The position numbers and the translations under genes are program-made. Shown here piece by piece: positions 4,317-39,997 of a stretch of 64,000 nucleotides of DNA. The stretch's first letter is position 1. Each line of letters opens with the position of its first letter. The DNA is taken from positions 1 to 64,000 of IMG/VR virus record IMGVR_UViG_3300045684_000009; one strand, given 5' to 3'. Below the pieces are notes generated by a model that saw only the letters and a program-made list of their open reading frames with translations, ran no database searches and was not told the DNA's origin. The DNA comes from a virus.

Positions 4317-5090
4317 TTATGTATTTATGCAATCATAAGGACCTAACTGTCCTCCTTTTGATTTATTTAAACAATTGTATAAAGGATTATCTTTATAAAA
4401 CTTTATCATCTTTGTTTCCAAACTACAGGCATTGTTAACTTCTAAATATGGAGTCAGTTGAATAAATTGCCCTAATCTTTTTATTTTAGATATTTCAGGT
4501 CTACGATGTCGTCTCTTATCAATGTTGTAGGTTATACCTACGTATCTTTTATTAACGTGTTTTATTAGGTAGACACATCTTTTAAACCTATTTCCTACTT
4601 TTTTCATGTGCGAACATACTTCATCTAAAATACCTCGTCGAGACGCTGCAATATATGCAGCTCCATTTTTTAACTTAAATTCTGTTCTAGTATTATATTT
4701 TAAAGCTTCTTGTTGTATCATTTGATTTGTCCATTTAACAATACCAACCATGTGTGCGCATGCTTTTTCATATATTCCAAACTTTACAGCAGCAGCAACT
4801 GCCCCGCCAAATCTCTTCTTAAATTCAGTCCTAGTCTTACATTTTCTAGCCTCTTTTAATATTTCATCTTTTGTCCAATCAGAATGGTAATGGGGAGACA
4901 TGTGATGACAAACATCATTAAGTATACCTAACCGAATTGCCGCACTATATGCAGACCTATAATTTCTTTGAAATTCATATCTAGATTGACATCTAGAAGC
5001 AACTTCTCGTATAAGGTGTGGTAACCATTTAACTCTAGCGTCCCCATTATCGTACATCGTCTGTATCGCTTGTATTGCTTTTTGTTTCAT
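4317..5090 (-). CDS. GIY-YIG homing-type endonuclease with three helical repeats
   Basis: A 257-residue DNA-cleaving enzyme. Residues 22-64, 72-114 and 120-162 are three copies of a ~43-residue unit (W...EA.KC.TRTEFK...AAY.AA..GI...C.HM). This unit is familiar from phage homing endonucleases, where it is presumed to bind DNA. Residues about 172-245 form a GIY-YIG domain: VYLI (173-176), YVGIT (183-187), Arg-rich helix, catalytic Glu225 in SLETKMIKFYK and Asn239. It stands free rather than inside an intron and starts at the stop of its downstream-strand neighbour (5090). It is probably a selfish gene or serves phage-phage competition; the domain call is firm, the target unknown. Confidence 0.88.
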   Translation of the reverse strand: MKQKAIQAIQTMYDNGDARVKWLPHLIREVASRCQSRYEFQRNYRSAYSAAIRLGILNDVCHHMSPHYHSDWTKDEILKEARKCKTRTEFKKRFGGAVAAAVKFGIYEKACAHMVGIVKWTNQMIQQEALKYNTRTEFKLKNGAAYIAASRRGILDEVCSHMKKVGNRFKRCVYLIKHVNKRYVGITYNIDKRRHRRPEISKIKRLGQFIQLTPYLEVNNACSLETKMIKFYKDNPLYNCLNKSKGGQLGPYDCINT

Positions 5091-5629: not shown

Positions 5630-5881
5630 CTACTTCATATCTACGTATACGGTCTCAATGTGGTCAGTCGCTGTACCCATGTCGTGGTCACCTCTTATTA
5701 CAGTTGCAAATCTTATACTCTTTACTTCCTCTCCTGTTTCTGTTTCGACTGCCGCTTTTATAAGTTCAATTACGTCTTTTTCTGTAAGTTCTATTTTTTT
5801 ATTTATCTTCATTAGTCTGTGTTTTGGTACAATTAATCCAAATTTATATTTATGTTTCCAAGAGTACCCCCAGTTATCCAT
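5630..5881 (-). CDS. Capsid-fragment protein E (MCP C-terminus plus novel domain)
   Basis: An 83-residue protein. Residues 4-18 (WGYSWKHKYKFGLIV) closely match MCP residues 491-504 (WGYDWFHRCKFGLV), the extreme C-terminus of this phage's major capsid protein. After that the protein diverges into about 55 residues with a helix then strands (LTEKDVIELIKAAVETE, then IRFATVIRGDHD), which are absent from the MCP. The ATG at 5881 overlaps the stop of fragment D in an 8-nt ATGGATAA junction. It is the last of five collinear capsid-like pieces. It may be a decoy or assembly modulator, or a relic. The gene call is firm, the MCP relationship strong, the role unknown. Confidence 0.8.
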   Translation of the reverse strand: MDNWGYSWKHKYKFGLIVPKHRLMKINKKIELTEKDVIELIKAAVETETGEEVKSIRFATVIRGDHDMGTATDHIETVYVDMK

Positions 5882-6263
5882 CTAAATTCATTGTTGGATG
5901 AAATTCAAATAATAACTCTCCTGCCACAAATACATAACACCTAAACGATGCTGTCGGTATGTGTGTACCTGGAAGTAAAACAGAGTGAATCATCATATTG
6001 TCAAGCTGAGGATTGTAGTTAACATCAATAACAGTATTAGTTACTAAATGACGATAACCTTGGTTATATGGTTCTTCAATCCAAGAGGTGTTAGAATTCT
6101 CCATATTATCCTGTATAAGCTTAAGACCACCTTGTCCAGTTACTATGTATAAATGTAATGGTGACGGTATCTTATCGAACACCTCTGCTCTCACATGTTC
6201 TATCATGAACGATAATGCATCATTCATTTTAGTGGCGTTGTATTTAATTATTCGTTTATTCAT
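5874..6263 (-). CDS. Capsid-fragment protein D (MCP residues ~311-455)
   Basis: A 129-residue protein starting MNKRIIKYNATKM at 6263 (a GTG at 6269 is an alternative). It aligns by eye with MCP 309-455: YNATKMNDALSFMIEHVRAEVFD with the MCP stretch from YNPRANG to WFD, then VTGQGGLKLIQD with LYTGQAGLKLFHD (344-356), then a C-terminal match of SVLLPGTHIP..F.CYVFV to TVTYPNSHYPVSSYEFYAF. The MCP segment about 360-405 is mostly lost. Its start continues the MCP alignment exactly where fragment C stops, with an ATGAATAA stop-start overlap. The capsid ancestry is very likely, but no function is shown. Confidence 0.82.
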   Translation of the reverse strand: MNKRIIKYNATKMNDALSFMIEHVRAEVFDKIPSPLHLYIVTGQGGLKLIQDNMENSNTSWIEEPYNQGYRHLVTNTVIDVNYNPQLDNMMIHSVLLPGTHIPTASFRCYVFVAGELLFEFHPTMNLDG

Positions 6264-6501
6264 CTTCACATATTTGATCTATATATCCCAAAGGAGATAT
6301 TCCAGGACCTAATGTTATAATATTTTTAAACTTATCATCTGTTATGATCGAATCGCTTGGGTGTACTGCGCCACCAAAAGGTAAGTCAGCTTCCTTTATA
6401 CCATTGTTCCAATCTGCGTTCCTATTTGCATGCTCTGAGATAGGTTCTACAAGAAATAATCTACCTCCTTTCTTTACATAAAATGTTCCGTACTTACTCA
6501 T
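6256..6501 (-). CDS. Capsid-fragment protein C (MCP residues ~270-308)
   Basis: An 81-residue protein starting MSKYGTFYVKKGG at 6501. The frame is open back to 6567, but the ATG at 6501 overlaps the upstream stop as ATGAGTAA, like its neighbours. The clearest MCP match is IITLGPGISPLGYIDQICE with MCP RITTGPGLFEFLEESN (294-309). The first 50 residues match only loosely. In context it sits between fragments B and D in MCP order. On its own this assignment would be weak; the order of the set supports it. Confidence 0.68.
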   Translation of the reverse strand: MSKYGTFYVKKGGRLFLVEPISEHANRNADWNNGIKEADLPFGGAVHPSDSIITDDKFKNIITLGPGISPLGYIDQICEDE

Positions 6502-6730
6502 ATTTTTCATTTTTAAATCTACAATCATGTTCGTAGCCCTGAATCCACCCCTTCCCAATTGAGCCAAAAGTTAACTTATATATCCAACGTTTCCACCACC
6601 TATGTATTACAGGCTTGGGGTTACTCAATACTACAATGTTTTCGTTAAGTATATCATTAGTATTAAACCAATCACAATTCAACCTTAGTATAAAATGTCC
6701 TTTTTTATCCACAGTAATCAATTTCTCCAC
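6494..6730 (-). CDS. Capsid-fragment protein B (MCP residues ~118-168)
   Basis: A 78-residue protein beginning at GTG 6730, or at GTG 6712, which overlaps the upstream stop as GTGGATAA. GHFILRLNCDWFNTNDIL matches MCP QITFLIRLDVDWFGPYDVL (118-136). The following strand (IVVLSNPKPV) matches MCP CQVVVESEPKFV (144-155). It duplicates part of the MCP region also present in the SET fusion, but is less similar to that copy (which has SFKSKKF in place of RLDVDWF). The C-terminal 25 residues (from GKGWIQGYE) are unmatched. It could be half of a degenerate second capsid gene or a free domain; role unknown. Confidence 0.72.
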   Translation of the reverse strand: MEKLITVDKKGHFILRLNCDWFNTNDILNENIVVLSNPKPVIHRWWKRWIYKLTFGSIGKGWIQGYEHDCRFKNEKYE

Positions 6731-7430
6731 CGCATAATGCTTTGTGGTAGTTTATTAATAATTCCTCTCCTTCTTCTATTCGTCTTGTGGTGGCGAACAC
6801 AGCAAAACAACCTTTATCAATTAACATAATATTATCATCCTCAGAGTGATTGACCCACCCTCCCAAAGAAGTCCTGATTAAACCTCCAGGATGATACTGC
6901 TCTATATAATCACCTTGACCATGTATCATCTCAGTACAGTATAGATTAATGTGAGACGGTCCTATTACAAAGTCCTTATCCAAACCTATTGTAGCGAATA
7001 CACCGTTGCCATGTATTGATGAACTTTTAAGTACTAACCCGTGGTGTAACGGAGAGAATGTGTAATTTGGTGGTAACTCCTTTTGCGCACTTGTTTCCTT
7101 AGACTTAGATTCAGGAGGAGGTATCAGTTCACCAATCAATTCCCAATATAAATCTTCTTTTAAATATTCAACAGGAATAGCTTCTACCAAGCAATCATCA
7201 TTGAGCATTACAACTTCGTGTCGAAACCCTTCATCACCAACTTCTATTGGGTAATCTTGCACAATCACTCGACAATACTTATTCACAACAGGTGCTATCA
7301 CATCGTTAGGTTTAAACTTCTTACTCTTAAAACTAATTAAAAAGCTGACTCCATCCTTTCCATAAGCTTGTTGGTCAGGATTGGGGTTAGTTGAAATTAG
7401 TGCACGCTTGTTATTTTTCATCATCTCCAT
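6705..7430 (-). CDS. MCP-domain / SET methyltransferase fusion (capsid fragment A)
   Basis: About 241 residues from ATG 7430 (TTG 7436 also open); residue numbers below count from the TTG. Residues 9-104 match MCP 98-192: KRALISTNPNPDQQAYG with RRALSLGNPNDEDACYG, NDVIAPVVNKYCRVIVQ with YDVLAPLDNKRCQVVVE, and PVEYLKEDLYWELI with PVEYLKESNYFIKL. A Pro/Ser-rich linker (105-125) leads into a SET domain at 131-231. SET landmarks are IHGNGVFAT, GGWVNHSEDDN (the NHS..pN pseudoknot motif) and FATTRRIEEGEELLINY with a C-terminal active-site Tyr. SET proteins transfer methyl from S-adenosylmethionine to lysine. The fusion suggests methylation directed to capsid or capsid-interacting proteins; that is inference. 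It overlaps the thioredoxin gene by about 20 nt. Confidence 0.88.
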   Translation of the reverse strand: MEMMKNNKRALISTNPNPDQQAYGKDGVSFLISFKSKKFKPNDVIAPVVNKYCRVIVQDYPIEVGDEGFRHEVVMLNDDCLVEAIPVEYLKEDLYWELIGELIPPPESKSKETSAQKELPPNYTFSPLHHGLVLKSSSIHGNGVFATIGLDKDFVIGPSHINLYCTEMIHGQGDYIEQYHPGGLIRTSLGGWVNHSEDDNIMLIDKGCFAVFATTRRIEEGEELLINYHKALCGGEIDYCG

Positions 7431-7713: not shown

Positions 7714-7861
7714 ATTGTTTCTTAATCAAAGCCTTTTGATTAGCTATCATCTGTTTTCGTTTAGCTATTTCGACATTCTTTAATTCTTTGAAGATGTTAT
7801 ATCTTTTATTTCTAGCTTGAATGTCTTTAACTTTTGTCTTTCTTCCTTTACTTTTTGGCAT
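7685..7861 (-). CDS. Small basic protein
   Basis: A 58-residue frame, MPKSKGRKTKVKD to QYGEEE, filling the gap between the ClpP-like and thioredoxin genes. It overlaps the former by 14 nt and the latter by up to 29 nt. It is strongly basic at the N-terminus and helical throughout (KRYNIFKELKNVEIAKRKQM), with an acidic end. It may bind nucleic acid or a protein partner. Coverage of an otherwise empty gap and coupled overlaps support it as a gene. Confidence 0.72.
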   Translation of the reverse strand: MPKSKGRKTKVKDIQARNKRYNIFKELKNVEIAKRKQMIANQKALIKKQYEEQYGEEE

Positions 7862-8366
7862 CTTTATAAAATATGTTTGGTTTTTTAAAATACTTCTTAA
7901 TATCAGTATAGCAAAATTCTACATCTTTACCTTTCTTAAATTCTTTCACTTTTTTCTTAGGTATATATCTATTTAAGAACTTAGATAATAGCTTATTAGT
8001 TTTTGCATCTATAACTTCCATATTGTCGTAAGATTTATTCTTTCGTTGACTGACTATCTGTCTACCTATTTTATGGAACATTATATAGTCTAATAACTCC
8101 TCTCTGATGACTATCTTACACTCTAAATGTTTGAACACTAAAATTGCAGCAGCAGAACAATTCTGGAATGTAGGAAATACATCGATTTTATCTTTTCTAG
8201 AGTTAATATAATCTGCTAATACATGCATAAATGGTATCTCGCCGCCAGGTGAAGAAAAGTATAAATTAATATACTGCCAATTAGCCATTTCATCAATTAG
8301 TACCGCTACTGTTTCGTTAGTAATAGTTTCATCAAAAATTATAGTGTGTACATAAGTCTCATTCAT
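7848..8366 (-). CDS. ClpP-like serine protease
   Basis: A 172-residue protein with the ClpP/crotonase fold. INLYFSSPGGEI (33-44) is the oxyanion-loop strand (SPGG). CSAAAIL carries the presumed nucleophile Ser71, where ClpP has S-M-A. DYIMFHKIG carries the presumed His98. The C-terminal 40 residues are Lys-rich and unlike bacterial ClpP. Phage ClpP-like enzymes act either as head-maturation proteases or on host proteins. Its place in the leftward block, far from the capsid genes, favours the second, but a late role is not excluded. No ATPase partner is next to it. Confidence 0.85.
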   Translation of the reverse strand: MNETYVHTIIFDETITNETVAVLIDEMANWQYINLYFSSPGGEIPFMHVLADYINSRKDKIDVFPTFQNCSAAAILVFKHLECKIVIREELLDYIMFHKIGRQIVSQRKNKSYDNMEVIDAKTNKLLSKFLNRYIPKKKVKEFKKGKDVEFCYTDIKKYFKKPNIFYKDAKK

Positions 8367-9133: not shown

Positions 9134-9748
9134 TTAACTTTGGTTTATATTATTCTCCGTTTCAAACTCGTCTATAGACGTTAACGTATCTGCATTTACT
9201 GCACTTCTATACGACGTATTAGTTGCGTTTACTGAATAAACTATTGAACCATATTCTGCAGCACTATCGTTAAAGCTTTTAGTCATCCCTCTAGATACTC
9301 CAAAAGATTGAGCTGTTTTAATTGACTCTTCATCTGCGCCCACAAAAGACACTAGCCAGTCGTTCTTTCTAAGTTTCTTAATAATTTTCTTTACATCTTT
9401 AAATGTGTATTTTTTGGAAGAGTTCTCCTCACCGTCTGTAAATATGTTTACAACACCTCCGTCAAAACCTTTAGGTAGTGAGTTAACACCTTCGCAGATT
9501 GCATCATACAATGCAGTTCCTGAACCTGATATTCTTAATGTTTCGAAATTAGTAATACTACTACCCCCAACAAATTTACCACCATCTCTTACAGACGAGT
9601 CAAAGAATATTACTTGAGTGTAATTACCATCTCCCGCATTTTTTACATCGTTCAATGCTGAGTTTAAACCTGCTTTAGCTGCATCAATCTTTTCACCCGA
9701 CATCGATGGGGAAGTGTCTACTATAAATAAATTGCAAATCTTTTTCAT
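9134..9748 (-). CDS. VWA-domain protein (TerY-like)
   Basis: A 204-residue von Willebrand factor A domain with a complete MIDAS metal site: DTSPS (Asp11, Ser13, Ser15), Thr79 in GTALYDA and Asp105 in IFTDGEEN. SGEKIDAAKAGLNSAL resembles TerY-type bacterial VWA proteins, which pair with phosphatases. There is no signal peptide, so it is cytoplasmic. It sits directly upstream of the metallophosphatase gene, suggesting a joint complex. The C-terminus (about 165-204) is Ser/Asn-rich and may be flexible. Function unproven. Confidence 0.88.
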   Translation of the reverse strand: MKKICNLFIVDTSPSMSGEKIDAAKAGLNSALNDVKNAGDGNYTQVIFFDSSVRDGGKFVGGSSITNFETLRISGSGTALYDAICEGVNSLPKGFDGGVVNIFTDGEENSSKKYTFKDVKKIIKKLRKNDWLVSFVGADEESIKTAQSFGVSRGMTKSFNDSAAEYGSIVYSVNATNTSYRSAVNADTLTSIDEFETENNINQS

Positions 9749-9775
9749 ATTTTATATTGTTTAAGTTAATAATTG

Positions 9776-9848
9776 AAGCGGGGGAGGGACTCGAACCCTC
9801 GATCTCAAGGTTATGAGCCTTGTGAGTTACCATCTTCTCCACCCCGCT
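9776..9848 (-). tRNA. tRNA-Met (anticodon CAT)
   Basis: A full cloverleaf on the minus strand: acceptor AGCGGGG/CCCCGCT, D arm with GATGGTAA, anticodon stem CAAGG/CCTTG around loop CTCATAA, variable AGATC, T stem GAGGG/CCCTC with loop TTCGAGT. CCA is not encoded. A CAT anticodon reads Met, or Ile if the C is lysidine-modified; elongator Met is the simplest call. The 5' end overlaps the TAG stop of the upstream gene by two bases, so it is probably cut from the polycistronic early transcript. Confidence 0.93.
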
Positions 9849-10590
9849 ATACGTATCTTAATTTAGTTTCTTTAATAAAGTTTTCAATTATATTTTTTAA
9901 ATCTTTAGGTTTCGGATCATCACCTAAATGTTTATATCCGTTAGCCAATTTAAAAGACCAATAATCTAAGTTACTACTATTCCAATAAAACTTATTTAAT
10001 AACCTTTCTGTCATGTCCTGTTTTATAGGATGCAGTTTCTTATTTATTTTAGTCTTTATTTTCCCATCATCTGTAATCCACCGCAAACCTGCGTAAGGGT
10101 AATTCTCTCTGACATAATCTACTTCTATTAACCCTTCTTGACACACGAACACATAATAATTTGGACAATAATATTTAGGACTCCCATCTTCCTTTAAAAG
10201 ATATTGACCTTTTGATTCGTAAACCTTTCTGAAGAACTCATGTTTCTTCCCCTTCACTGATTGCTCTTTAGCTACATCAGTCGAGTGGCATTTTATTTCG
10301 TCTTCATACGTAAGACCATTCTTCATCATGAACCAATCACTTTCCCAAAATTTAGAAGAATCATCTGAAAATAAGTATTTATTTCTACAACAATATTTAT
10401 GTGTTTTTGCGTAGTTGTTGTAGAGAACATATTGTATCTTCTTCTCTGTCCACCCTTTCGAATATTTATCATTTGGTACTCTGGTAATACCAGTAACTAC
10501 ACTATCTACATTTATCAATTTATCTTTCTTTTTGGTAGACTTTTTTCTTCTAGACTTCCTTCTAGTTTTTCTTCGTCTTCGTATTGTCAT
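9847..10590 (-). CDS. Possible PD-(D/E)XK nuclease with basic N-terminus
   Basis: A 247-residue protein. The first 25 residues are almost all Arg/Lys (RRRRKTRRKSRRKKSTKKK), which suggests nucleic-acid binding. TYEDEIKCHST (about 94-104) has an E-x-K pattern, and YYVFVCQEGLIEVDYVRENYPYAGL resembles the strand-helix region of phage PD-(D/E)XK proteins. The nuclease label is tentative. The stop codon runs into the tRNA-Met gene and the start overlaps the upstream gene by 29 nt. Confidence 0.6.
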   Translation of the reverse strand: MTIRRRRKTRRKSRRKKSTKKKDKLINVDSVVTGITRVPNDKYSKGWTEKKIQYVLYNNYAKTHKYCCRNKYLFSDDSSKFWESDWFMMKNGLTYEDEIKCHSTDVAKEQSVKGKKHEFFRKVYESKGQYLLKEDGSPKYYCPNYYVFVCQEGLIEVDYVRENYPYAGLRWITDDGKIKTKINKKLHPIKQDMTERLLNKFYWNSSNLDYWSFKLANGYKHLGDDPKPKDLKNIIENFIKETKLRYV

Positions 10591-10888
10591 CTATTGTCAG
10601 TCCATATTTATCTAAAAAACTATCAACTTGACTGTTTGCAAACTCGTCATCAAACTGAAACTCAATTTTAAACTGCTCGAACAACCAATCTTTATATACA
10701 CTTCTTTGTGCGGTGGTCCAAGTAAATATTTCATACCATTCCAACACACCCTCTATATCTACTCCACCAAGCTCTTTCATATCAAGGGCGTCCTCATATT
10801 GAGTGAGTTGTTCGTAATTAAAATCGTTATCCGAAACCTCAAACATGCGATTAATGAACCTCTTTAATAATACTTCTTCTTCATTCAT
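10562..10888 (-). CDS. Hypothetical acidic protein
   Basis: A 108-residue acidic helical protein starting MNEEEVLLKRFINRMF at ATG 10888 (a TTG at 10894 would add two residues). It is rich in Asp, Glu and aromatics (LEWYEIFTWTTAQRSVYKDW). Nothing identifies it. The ATG overlaps the stop of the GIY-YIG gene as ATGAATGA. It precedes the possible nuclease, and its acidity could suit an inhibitor or partner of that basic protein; this is a guess. Confidence 0.7.
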   Translation of the reverse strand: MNEEEVLLKRFINRMFEVSDNDFNYEQLTQYEDALDMKELGGVDIEGVLEWYEIFTWTTAQRSVYKDWLFEQFKIEFQFDDEFANSQVDSFLDKYGLTIDDNTKTKKN

Positions 10889-11327
10889 TGTCAAATATTT
10901 TTCTATAGTATTTTCCGTTTATGTTATCATTATATGATTCCAACTCTATAACTTCTTTACAAAATTGGTATTTAGTTTCGAAATATGTTAGTTGAGACTT
11001 TGTAGGACAAAACATTAGTATTTCTTTTTCTATCGGTTTCCCGTCTCTGATGTCTGATAAAAGCTCTTTACAAGAACCATTATATGTCGCCCAATCGCTT
11101 TCTTTTTCAGTATACTTGAATTTGGAAAGCCTTTTATCTGTTAACTCATTTAATTCTTTTTTAGTTAATTTCTTCTTTCTTCTGTATATTAACTGCTTCT
11201 TACCTATGTAAAACTTACCACTTTCTGTGTTTGTTATTTTGTAGACAAATCCAAAAGAATTTGGTGGTATATCAACCATTGAGTTAATTACTCTTCCTCC
11301 GAATTTCCAACTATTCTTTTCTTGCAT
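10881..11327 (-). CDS. GIY-YIG nuclease
   Basis: A 148-residue enzyme. GFVYKITN (26-33) and KFYIGKKQ (38-45) give the GIY and YIG strands. A Lys/Arg-rich helix, SDWATYNGSCKELL (77-90) and YFETKYQF with catalytic Glu117 follow, then YNDNINGKYY. Matches the family of compact phage GIY-YIG nucleases with the W.tY.GSs.eL motif. Unlike the protein at 4317-5090, it lacks DNA-binding repeats. A role in phage DNA processing or host DNA breakdown is likely. Confidence 0.85.
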   Translation of the reverse strand: MQEKNSWKFGGRVINSMVDIPPNSFGFVYKITNTESGKFYIGKKQLIYRRKKKLTKKELNELTDKRLSKFKYTEKESDWATYNGSCKELLSDIRDGKPIEKEILMFCPTKSQLTYFETKYQFCKEVIELESYNDNINGKYYRKIFDNE

Positions 11328-24921: not shown

Positions 24922-26484
24922 ATGATAGGTAGACATCCTTTCCCTAGTAAATTTATAATCAACGAAGAACAAGCAGGAGCAGAAAAATACTACTCTAAGA
25001 AATTCGATCATGAAGATTTACTTTTAGCATTTGGCGATCACATAAATGATTATACTGACTTAACTCAGTATGCGAAGAATTTATACAATACGTATAGTGT
25101 TACTTTATCCGACACGCACACTCTTTCTCCTTTCTATGATATGTTAGTGGGAACAGGTGGTCGTATTGATACACACGATAACTTCCTTAGATGGAGGATT
25201 TATTCAAAACCAGATAGGCGAGCATTGTCATTAGGTAATCCTAATGATGAAGATGCTTGTTATGGTGCTGACCAGATTACATTCTTGATAAGACTTGACG
25301 TAGATTGGTTTGGTCCATACGATGTTCTTGCACCTCTAGATAATAAGAGATGTCAAGTTGTTGTTGAATCTGAACCTAAATTTGTTGGTGGTGCTTACGA
25401 GTACGAAGTAACATTGTTAGAGAATCCAGAGAATGCAGCTACTTTCCCTGTAGAATATTTGAAAGAAAGTAACTACTTTATTAAACTTATCTCTTTAGGA
25501 TCTGATATAGGTTCAAACGAGAAAGGTACATTACAATTCGGTTTCGATTATTCGTATATCGAGTTTGAAACTACTATGACGACTGCCCAATGGGGATTCG
25601 AGGTAGATAAAGAAGCTCATGAGAAATGGGGTAACCTTGAGATCGCAAGATGCAATGATGACGGTAGACCTGTACCAGGTTCTGCTAAAATCACAAACTT
25701 CCTTGAGATTGAAGGTATGGCTCAGATTGATTATGAAAAAGAGCTTTGGTTAGCGTATGGTACTCAGACTGATTACCGAACTGCTAAATCGACAGGAAAT
25801 AGAATTACAACAGGTCCAGGTTTGTTTGAATTCTTAGAAGAGTCGAATGTTATACCTTACAACCCTAGAGCAAACGGTATTGACAGAATGATTAATGAAA
25901 TCGATGCCATATGGTTCGATAGAATTGCACCAGGAAAGAGAAAATTAGTTCTCTATACAGGTCAAGCTGGGTTGAAGTTATTCCATGATTGGATTGAAGA
26001 GAAATATGGAAATACTGTTGTTGTTACTCCTCACGATTTCGTATTGGGAGAAGGAGCACCAATTAATAACGCTAACGGGAAAGAATATTCTTACGGCGGA
26101 CAGTATTTGTTTACAAAATATAAATTACCAGTGTTTGGTGAAATTAGTGTAGCTCACTGGGAGTTCTTGGATAATACAAGAATTAACACAGTTACATATC
26201 CTAACTCACATTACCCTGTAAGTTCTTACGAATTCTATGCATTTGACATTGGATTTGGAGAGCCTAACGTTAAACTTCTTTATGATTCTAAAGAAGAGAA
26301 TACGTGGATTATGCCAGGATTGTGGTCACCGTTTGGTCCTACGACTTCTAAAAACCCTGTTTACAAACAACCATCAGGAGATAATCCGAAGTGGGGATAT
26401 GATTGGTTTCATAGATGTAAATTCGGATTAGTGATGATGGATCCAAAACGAGCGTTAGTATTTAAACCGAACATTACACAGTAA
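24922..26484 (+). CDS. Major capsid protein
   Basis: A 520-residue HK97-type shell protein by position (after scaffold, followed by its own strong terminator) and size. Landmarks reused below: GRIDTHDNFLRW (80-91), RRALSLGNPNDED (99-111), IRLDVDWFGPYDVL (123-136), FPVEYLKESN (175-184), RITTGPGLFEF (294-304), KLVLYTGQAGLKLF (341-354), INTVTYPNSHYP (421-432) and WGYDWFHRCKFGL (491-503). The N-terminus (1-35) is probably the arm. Pieces of this protein recur in the leftward genes at 5630-7430, including a SET fusion. I see no obvious protease cleavage site. Confidence 0.87.
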   Translation: MIGRHPFPSKFIINEEQAGAEKYYSKKFDHEDLLLAFGDHINDYTDLTQYAKNLYNTYSVTLSDTHTLSPFYDMLVGTGGRIDTHDNFLRWRIYSKPDRRALSLGNPNDEDACYGADQITFLIRLDVDWFGPYDVLAPLDNKRCQVVVESEPKFVGGAYEYEVTLLENPENAATFPVEYLKESNYFIKLISLGSDIGSNEKGTLQFGFDYSYIEFETTMTTAQWGFEVDKEAHEKWGNLEIARCNDDGRPVPGSAKITNFLEIEGMAQIDYEKELWLAYGTQTDYRTAKSTGNRITTGPGLFEFLEESNVIPYNPRANGIDRMINEIDAIWFDRIAPGKRKLVLYTGQAGLKLFHDWIEEKYGNTVVVTPHDFVLGEGAPINNANGKEYSYGGQYLFTKYKLPVFGEISVAHWEFLDNTRINTVTYPNSHYPVSSYEFYAFDIGFGEPNVKLLYDSKEENTWIMPGLWSPFGPTTSKNPVYKQPSGDNPKWGYDWFHRCKFGLVMMDPKRALVFKPNITQ

Positions 26485-38068: not shown

Positions 38069-39997
38069 ATGGCTTTAAAAGACAAAATAGTATTATTAGC
38101 TCAGGAGATAGCGGCGGACGTTAAGACATTATTAGCACACGCTGCCAATACTTCAAACCCACATTCAGTAGATAAAACTGATGTAGGTTTAGGTAATGTT
38201 CCAAATGTGGATGCGACAGATGTAGACAATCACAGTAGTGGAACTACTAATAAAGTGTATACGGCTGCCGAACAGACTAAAGTGGGATTTATCAGCGTAA
38301 CGCAGGCAGTAGACCTGGATGCAATGGAATCTGACATAGCTACTAATACAGCTAAAGTAGGAGTAACCACTGAGATATCAGATGTAGTTGAAGATTTAAC
38401 ACCACAATTAGGTGGAGATTTAGATCCAAATGGATTTGGAATAGGAGCTACTAGAGAGCTTTTAACTTTTGTCGAAGATGCTTCTGCAGTAAATCATTTA
38501 GAAATAGAAAATGAAGCTACAGGAGGTGGACCAATATTAAGAGCAACGGGTGATGACGCAGATGTAGACCTTACTTTAGAGACCAAAGGTGATGGTAGAA
38601 TAAATTTAGCTGACCATGTTTATGTAAAGGATTCAAGGGCTATAACAGCAGCAGATTCATCTGCATTAAATATTGATGCAGATTGGACAGGAGTTGGTGG
38701 GAGTTTTTATCGTAAAGGAGTTTTTTTAGATCTTAATTCTACTGGGTCAAATGCAAATGTTCTTGGACTAGATTTTAATTATAATGTAACAGGAACAAAC
38801 AGTAAAGGGGAGTTTATACGAGGGGTTGCAAGTAATAATGGTAGATTGGGATCAACAATGGTTGATTTATCTACTACAAATACTGAAATACTTTTCACAT
38901 CCTATAGTACATACTTTAACAAACAAGTCCAAAATTGGACAGGAATTACAAATAGCGATAGGTATAACCAAAAAGTGTACGGGTTATATAATGAGATAAA
39001 TGTAGATACAGCTTGGAACTCTGCGGCCAACGTAAATAAGCCTGAGTTCTATGGTTTGTGGAGTCAGATAGACACTCCTAGTTCTACTAACACAACTGAG
39101 TATGGTTTGTACCTAAATTCAGTAAATGGAGGGACAGATGATTTTGGAGTATATTCTTTAGGAAATGGTGCTAACATTTTTGAGGGTAATGTAGGTATAG
39201 GCAGGTTAACCGCAAGCTACCCATTGCACGTACAAGGATGGATAGTTAATGCTCAAGATGGTATACGAACTAGAACAGGAACTGCAGCAGAGCCTGCTCA
39301 TGGGTTTATTGATGATATTGATATGGGTATGTACCGTATTACTACGAATACAATAGGGTTCAGTACAGGAGCTGCTGAAAGAATGAGTATCAATGGATCA
39401 GGGGATGTAAAGGTATCTACAGGAAATTTAGGTATAGGGAGAGATCCTACAGAAACCTTAGATGTATACGCCAGTAGTCATGCTACATTAAAATTAGAAT
39501 CTGATACAGGGGATGCTATATTAACCTTAAATTCTAATAATGGTAGTGGAGACCAACCTGAAATATGGTTCAGAAGAAATTCAGGAGCAACAATGACGTT
39601 TAGAACGTTAGCTGCTTCAGATGACACAGAATTAACTACTTTTTCAAATACTCAAGAGTTACAACTACAAACTAGTGGAGGATTAACTAGTATGGGAGGA
39701 GGAGTTGCTTACACAACTACTACAAGTGCAGCAGGAAATTACACAGTTTTAGTAACTGATAAAGTAATATTTAAATCAGGAATAACTGGCGGAGGAGATA
39801 CAGTAACATTACCTAGTGGAGCTGCCACTGGACAAGTGTTTATAATAAAAGATAGTGGAGGAAACGCAAGTACAGATTCTATAACTATAGCTACTGCAGG
39901 TGCAGAAACTATAGATGGCGTTAGTACATACTCTATAAGACAAGATTATCAAAGTGTTACTGTTATTTTCGATGGTACAAATTATAATATAATATAA
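38069..39997 (+). CDS. Tail-fibre protein (distal)
   Basis: A 642-residue fibre. The N-terminus (KIVLLAQEIAADVKTLLAHA) parallels that of the preceding gene. SNPHSVDKTDVGLGNVPNVD is a shaft unit. DVDLTLETKGDGRINLADHV and repeated G..GIGR..P...L.V.G strands (GNLGIGRDPTETLDVYASSH) are typical of Bacteroidota phage and cell-surface fibres. The C-terminus (FIIKDSGGNASTDSITIATA, then YQSVTVIFDGTNYNII) is a knob seen in many tail fibres. The last base of its stop begins the next gene. Confidence 0.78.
   Translation: MALKDKIVLLAQEIAADVKTLLAHAANTSNPHSVDKTDVGLGNVPNVDATDVDNHSSGTTNKVYTAAEQTKVGFISVTQAVDLDAMESDIATNTAKVGVTTEISDVVEDLTPQLGGDLDPNGFGIGATRELLTFVEDASAVNHLEIENEATGGGPILRATGDDADVDLTLETKGDGRINLADHVYVKDSRAITAADSSALNIDADWTGVGGSFYRKGVFLDLNSTGSNANVLGLDFNYNVTGTNSKGEFIRGVASNNGRLGSTMVDLSTTNTEILFTSYSTYFNKQVQNWTGITNSDRYNQKVYGLYNEINVDTAWNSAANVNKPEFYGLWSQIDTPSSTNTTEYGLYLNSVNGGTDDFGVYSLGNGANIFEGNVGIGRLTASYPLHVQGWIVNAQDGIRTRTGTAAEPAHGFIDDIDMGMYRITTNTIGFSTGAAERMSINGSGDVKVSTGNLGIGRDPTETLDVYASSHATLKLESDTGDAILTLNSNNGSGDQPEIWFRRNSGATMTFRTLAASDDTELTTFSNTQELQLQTSGGLTSMGGGVAYTTTTSAAGNYTVLVTDKVIFKSGITGGGDTVTLPSGAATGQVFIIKDSGGNASTDSITIATAGAETIDGVSTYSIRQDYQSVTVIFDGTNYNII

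Follow-up and report, generated by a model that had tools for sequence, protein, structure and literature searches.

Why does a phage with an intact gene for its major capsid protein (MCP) carry, on the opposite strand, a packed row of small genes, several of which resemble parts of that same protein? The locus lies in a 133,828 bp virus record, bases 1-64000 of which were analysed as one stretch of 64,000 nucleotides (the window; coordinates refer to the window unless the whole record is named). An earlier note on this DNA had read five consecutive minus-strand genes, here called A to E, as pieces of the phage's own MCP, one of them fused to a SET methyltransferase.

The terminase, portal and MCP of the record matched the crAss-like families phrog_6681, phrog_6547 and Crass_capsid, and, because its MCP shares only about 24% identity with known Crassvirales, the phage is assigned to a distant crAss-like lineage. 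With its own terminase, portal and MCP, the record does not have the make-up of a satellite or prophage that exploits a helper. The intact MCP (520 aa; Crass_capsid PF23898) is encoded at 24922..26484 on the plus strand, which carries the virion genes. The A-E array is on the minus strand, where its operon mates are thioredoxin, ClpP-like, phosphatase and DNA-polymerase exonuclease genes. The junctions A/B, B/C, C/D and D/E can each be read as an 8-bp start-stop overlap, tight packing of this kind being a general feature of the genome. The ClpP-like protein (7848-8366, minus), recognised by a weak Pfam match to CLP_protease and a phrog ATP-dependent protease match, is encoded just upstream of the array and apart from the virion genes. 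A tRNA-Met (cat) gene is located at 9775-9848 (minus), between the ORFs 9134-9748 and 9847-10590. Elsewhere the record yielded a single further paralogous pair, 101090-101719 (plus) of the whole record and 38069-39997 (plus) of the window, with C-terminal parts 34% identical; this pair is in a tail-fibre-like protein with a weak match to a depolymerase C-terminal domain.

When the MCP was compared with all 532 ORFs (at least 40 aa) of the whole record, the best matches after the MCP itself were A (E-value 8e-16), D (1.8e-7), E (0.003) and B (0.037), in that order and all inside 1.8 kb. The aligned stretches were MCP 96-185 for A (42% identity), 310-444 for D, 491-513 for E and 121-153 for B. 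In 1000 composition shuffles per piece, the observed score was never reached for A, B, D or E, and was reached 247 times for C. Profile searches placed A (3e-30, I-domain profile) and D (8e-24, D-segment profile) on the MCP, with both profiles containing the pieces themselves; a profile built of MCPs alone returned A at 4.6e-10 and D at 1.7e-4. The profile placement suggested in the earlier note thus held for A and D. Genes E and B are tied to the MCP by pairwise score only, and C showed no homology to it. Judged by these comparisons, A, D and E are three real MCP-paralogous pieces in a packed minus-strand operon. Of the five pieces originally proposed, these three are solid, B is doubtful, and C was excluded by the searches and shuffles. 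The MCP order claimed for B to E accordingly holds for D and E, which together with A lie collinear to the MCP and are separated by gaps. Segments 1-95, ~193-305 and ~448-490 of the MCP are missing from the array; a complete single-chain HK97 protein (N-arm, E-loop with I-domain, spine helix, P- and A-domains) is thus not encoded by the array, and the pieces are spread over three ORFs.

Gene B (6494..6730, minus; start GTG at 6712 or 6730) encodes a small protein that had been placed on MCP ~118-168. Its likeness to the MCP was confined to one 27-residue stretch around FILRLNCDWFNTNDIL, an I-domain-like strand motif; motifs of this kind also occur in a small ORF elsewhere in the record (73416-73709) and in an ORF of record MT835470. 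Since the same motif occurs in other small ORFs, B was not accepted as an MCP piece: the motif is there, its MCP origin is uncertain, and on sequence grounds B may equally well be a small beta-barrel module or an MCP relic. The ORF 73416-73709 (whole record, minus; 97 aa) shares the 7-mer IRLDVDW with the MCP I-domain and gave a weak I-domain profile match (5e-4), which suggests that it may form, together with B, a family of small I-domain-like barrels.

Gene C (6256..6501, minus; real start at 6501) encodes a small protein of 81 aa that is, by alignment and shuffles, not derived from the MCP. It had been read as MCP ~270-308 continuing into D without loss of alignment. A better homologue was found in the gut phage record MT835470, where an ORF of 104 aa lies close to the DNA polymerase gene, and the 'TLGPG' behind the MCP reading belongs to C's own family, in which 'TLGPGISPL' corresponds to 'TLEPGVSPL' of the MT835470 member; the C/D join is therefore not real. 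The human gut phage record that carries this homologue also encodes a very divergent crAss-type MCP (MT835470.1, 82738-83571; profile E-value 1e-17).

Gene A (6705..7424, minus; likely start ATG at 7424 or 7421) combines an MCP I-domain, a linker and a SET domain of the lysine-methyltransferase type. In the MCP of crAss001 (gp32), the insertion (I) domain comprises residues 79-180 and forms a beta-barrel in the E-loop, situated on the capsid surface in a three-fold assembly with an auxiliary protein (PMC10172136). With a close relative of gp32 as the ruler, residues 79-180 map onto residues 98-194 of the phage's own MCP, and A hence begins almost exactly at one domain boundary and its homology, which covers MCP 96-186 in the alignment and by profile extends to about 192, ends near the other. 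The N-terminal part (7125..7424, minus), delimited by alignment, profiles and the published I-domain limits, is homologous to MCP ~96-190 with 42% identity to the own MCP, and retains 6 of the 8 highly conserved I-domain positions. The C-terminal part (6708..7076, minus) scored above the Pfam SET threshold and contains the motifs SIHGNG, RTSLGGWVNHSxxxN and GEELLINY, that is, a SET fold with the GxG, NHSxxxN and GEExxxxY signatures, also indicated by structure match. A SET profile searched against PDB found true SET enzymes, with MLL1 at 8e-11 and PBCV-1 vSET at 4e-8. In the AlphaFold2 model of A the I-domain was confident (blocks mostly 81-93), the linker at 102-120 disordered, and the SET core confident for the most part, apart from one loose, low-confidence insert of 27 residues. 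In Foldseek the model matched SET enzymes including vSET as well as the crAss001 MCP; the input alignments were rich in MCP and SET sequences, and the models therefore lean toward those folds. From alignment and motifs, A is read as the whole I-domain of the MCP plus a SET domain predicted to be catalytically complete. The fusion announced in the earlier note as MCP 98-192 with SET is thus real, with its capsid part redefined as a complete domain.

Gene D (5874..6263, minus) encodes a 129-aa HK97-fold segment homologous to MCP ~306-447, without ~30 internal residues, and corresponds to about 300-434 of crAss001 gp32; its earlier placement on MCP ~309-455 was borne out by search, profile, tree and shuffles. 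Given how the elements of the HK97 fold follow one another, D most likely represents the A-domain. Its model is a mixed helix-strand fold of moderate confidence (pLDDT 72, pTM 0.67). The first-ranked Foldseek match was a designed protein, and most of the better matches after it were HK97-fold phage capsids, with TM about 0.4-0.55 and individually weak E-values. D retains 9 of 17 strongly conserved positions. In gene E (5630..5881, minus), the MCP-like part, the C-terminal strand, comprises the first ~23 residues only, by pairwise match. Residues 24-76 match phrog_13043, a common small phage domain, so that the first half of the earlier reading (MCP ~489-504) stands in slightly shifted form and the supposedly new domain is of a widespread type.

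Comparable arrangements were sought in other phages. In 28 other records searched, almost all of them crAss-like, no SET domain was found, and no second copy of the I-domain or D-segment at comparable score; the single weak extra I-domain match was the motif ORF of MT835470. The 80 closest phage SET relatives have no I-domain, and few residues precede their SET domain. Viral and genome contigs were also scanned for relatives of A, D, MCP and TerL; a scan either confirmed none or turned up nothing beyond MCPs of about 21-33% identity. The fusion of a capsid domain to SET was not found elsewhere among the records and SET relatives searched, nor was the same array found in other phages by searches that may leave out records very near this genome, for which reason the lack of relatives is weak evidence. 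In one record (G016) a crAss-like MCP is interrupted by about 0.8 kb (25089-25915) behind profile position 452, with the C-terminal 49 positions resuming downstream; the insert is possibly an intron, and this split MCP is a different thing from the A/D/E array.

The origin of the copy was approached by trees of A and D with the own MCP and 57 other crAss-like MCPs. A and D were each sister to the own MCP, with SH-aLRT values of 96 and 98, on long branches of 4.2 (A) and 6.4 (D) changes per site. Identity to the own MCP was 39% for A and 32% for D, and to the 57 other MCPs at most 24% and 20%, respectively. Because the trees place A and D beside the own MCP, the copy is taken to have arisen in this lineage, and, as the order of A, D and E equals that of the MCP, the simplest history would be one duplication, after which MCP ~193-305 and ~448-490 were lost and SET, B and C were acquired. 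At the level of domains, the array very probably descends from a duplicated own-lineage MCP that was reduced to separate units. That the pieces were instead taken from the capsid gene of another phage is highly improbable: phage genes do move readily, and an endonuclease-like gene of the GIY-YIG type is located 540 bp downstream of the array, but the sister position of both A and D to the own MCP against 57 others speaks against a foreign donor; one close to this lineage stays conceivable, since the searched records may leave out near ones.

The GIY-YIG (homing-endonuclease-like) gene at 4317..5090 (minus) might itself have been the agent of the duplication. Two GIY-YIG endonuclease-like genes are present in the window (4317-5090 and 10881-11327, both minus), and the family of the former is multi-copy in Vibrio jumbo phages. 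In 6 of the 8 other crAss-like records searched for it, a GIY-YIG gene and the MCP gene lie no more than about 1 kb apart, which makes co-conversion of MCP DNA with an endonuclease plausible. As the gene at 4317-5090 belongs to a different subfamily from these MCP-adjacent genes, its having moved MCP DNA to the array is considered possible and no more.

Whether the descendants of this copy are functional or decaying is a separate matter. The in-frame codon scores of A (0.32) and D (0.30) equal those of neighbouring genes, the MCP-like start of E (24 codons) being too short for such a score. No stop occurs within A, D or E, and neither stops and frameshifts nor loss of coding signal, as a pseudogene would have, mark A and D. 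Under neutral drift to the observed divergence, about 4 stops would be expected in A and about 8 in D; the frame of A stayed free of stops in only 1% of the simulated runs, and that of D in 0 of 3000. Together with the codon usage, the open frames weaken the plain alternative of the earlier note, a decaying duplicate capsid gene invaded by a SET gene. In its full form this alternative holds that a duplicated MCP is decaying in the replication operon, that it took in a small SET gene along with further small genes, and that in-frame leftovers remain as ORFs without capsid-domain function, of which SET alone may be useful. The collinear but gapped arrangement of A, D and E is what deletions and insertions leave, and the missing segments between the pieces fit earlier decay; the very long branches of A and D would also result from relaxed constraint, D is short of ~30 internal residues and retains only about half of its strongly conserved positions, and the array was found in no relative (in searches that may leave out very near records). 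The gene-like codon use, the absence of stops, the compact start-stop overlaps and the coincidence of the surviving part of A with a structural domain speak against it. This last point, the almost exact match of A's piece to a known structural domain, favours a docking domain over random decay. Stop-free frames do not date selection, since most of the divergence may have built up in a capsid gene that was still whole and was broken up only recently. Because the stop-codon argument is silent on when selection acted, plain decay is retained as a serious rival of minority probability, and A as a docking methyltransferase is rated about equally.

The explanation we favour, with about an even chance of being right, is that the duplicated MCP was broken into domains and that A was co-opted as a capsid-addressed methyltransferase. 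It starts from what the sequence shows: homology to the MCP, the limits of the domains, SET motifs that are intact, frames that are open and use gene-like codons, and an origin in the own lineage. A copy of the own-lineage MCP gene would have entered the minus-strand operon of replication genes and been reduced to separately translated units, of which A holds the surface I-domain, D an A-domain-like segment and E the C-terminal strand; ordinary small genes would have come to lie between these units or to be fused to them. The I-domain would have been joined to a small stand-alone phage SET methyltransferase. As the I-domain of crAss001 sits outside the shell in three-fold contact with an auxiliary capsid protein, the loose I-domain of A may serve as an address tag. 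By way of its flexible linker, A would dock either on the auxiliary protein or on the I-domains of the capsid, and its SET domain might methylate lysines on the capsid or on capsid-bound proteins, or A might ride with the particle. We infer docking, catalysis, substrate and role for A tentatively; PDB searches with the three genes downstream of the MCP gave no auxiliary-protein homologue, and the docking partner is therefore a candidate only. D and E would probably be weak binders of capsid subunits, or on their way out. Of the roles put forward in the earlier note, interference with rival phages, guidance of the phage's own shell and methylation of the MCP are all candidates. A wider version is more speculative still: an outward capsid domain, excised and fused to a lysine methyltransferase, would yield an enzyme addressed to own or rival capsids or borne by the particle, with D and E belonging to the same device.

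The array lies with replication-type genes and is thus probably expressed before the late MCP. Such timing would also suit a role of the loose capsid domains as decoys or dominant-negatives, which occupy MCP-sensing host defences without triggering them, or poison the capsid assembly of co-infecting related phages. The bacterial defence CapRel-SJ46 can be directly triggered by newly made MCP (PMC9712102), and the pieces resemble the MCP of this very lineage. Yet dominant-negative pieces made before the own capsid would threaten the phage's own assembly too, and the SET fusion is not explained, which makes this role unlikely. If the favoured reading, a capsid-addressed methyltransferase, is true, a phage can put domains of its capsid to new use as address tags, and the locus illustrates one way in which nature might reuse the HK97 fold domain by domain.

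Among known systems, the closest to the array is the Crassvirales MCP itself (PF23898; crAss001 gp32, PDB 7qof), with the N-terminus of A equal to its I-domain, D to an HK97-core segment and the start of E to the C-terminal strand; here these parts are split over three ORFs on the other strand and cannot be a whole capsid protein. P4 Sid, PICI CpmAB and PLE TcaP are small satellite or prophage genes thought to act on capsid assembly. To our knowledge, proteins of this type, including Tab, are scaffolds or inhibitors and not MCP paralogues, are satellite- or prophage-encoded, and have no SET domain. Tab is a capsid-interference protein of the satellite/prophage group (PMC10884400). The array resembles these systems as a set of small genes that may act on capsid assembly, and differs in containing MCP paralogues and a SET domain, in a phage with its own terminase, portal and MCP. 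Ty1 p22 and Fv1 are endogenous capsid fragments that restrict relatives. They share with the array the encoding of partial capsid-gene copies apart from the capsid; these are retroelements with demonstrated restriction, whereas any such effect of the array is putative. SET proteins are widespread in phages, one scan matching at least 530 loci, and the literature searches found no paper on their substrates and nothing relevant on MCP methylation or MCP fragments. Stand-alone phage SET proteins of about 100 aa, such as gp27 of Pelagibacter phage Kolga and PSSM7_204 of Prochlorococcus phage P-SSM7, belong to the same SET subfamily as A, with about 28-43% identity and all motifs; the SET domain of A differs from them in being preceded by a linker and the I-domain of a capsid protein. 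This physical link gives SET a concrete candidate substrate, the capsid or the auxiliary protein, and the question becomes testable. The vSET protein of chlorella virus PBCV-1 (A612L) is likewise a small viral SET enzyme matched by the phage SET profile, and differs in belonging to a eukaryotic virus, in its histone substrate and in having no capsid domain. The virion contains this enzyme, which methylates histone H3 of the host (PMC7019647); this provides a precedent for a virion-borne SET enzyme.
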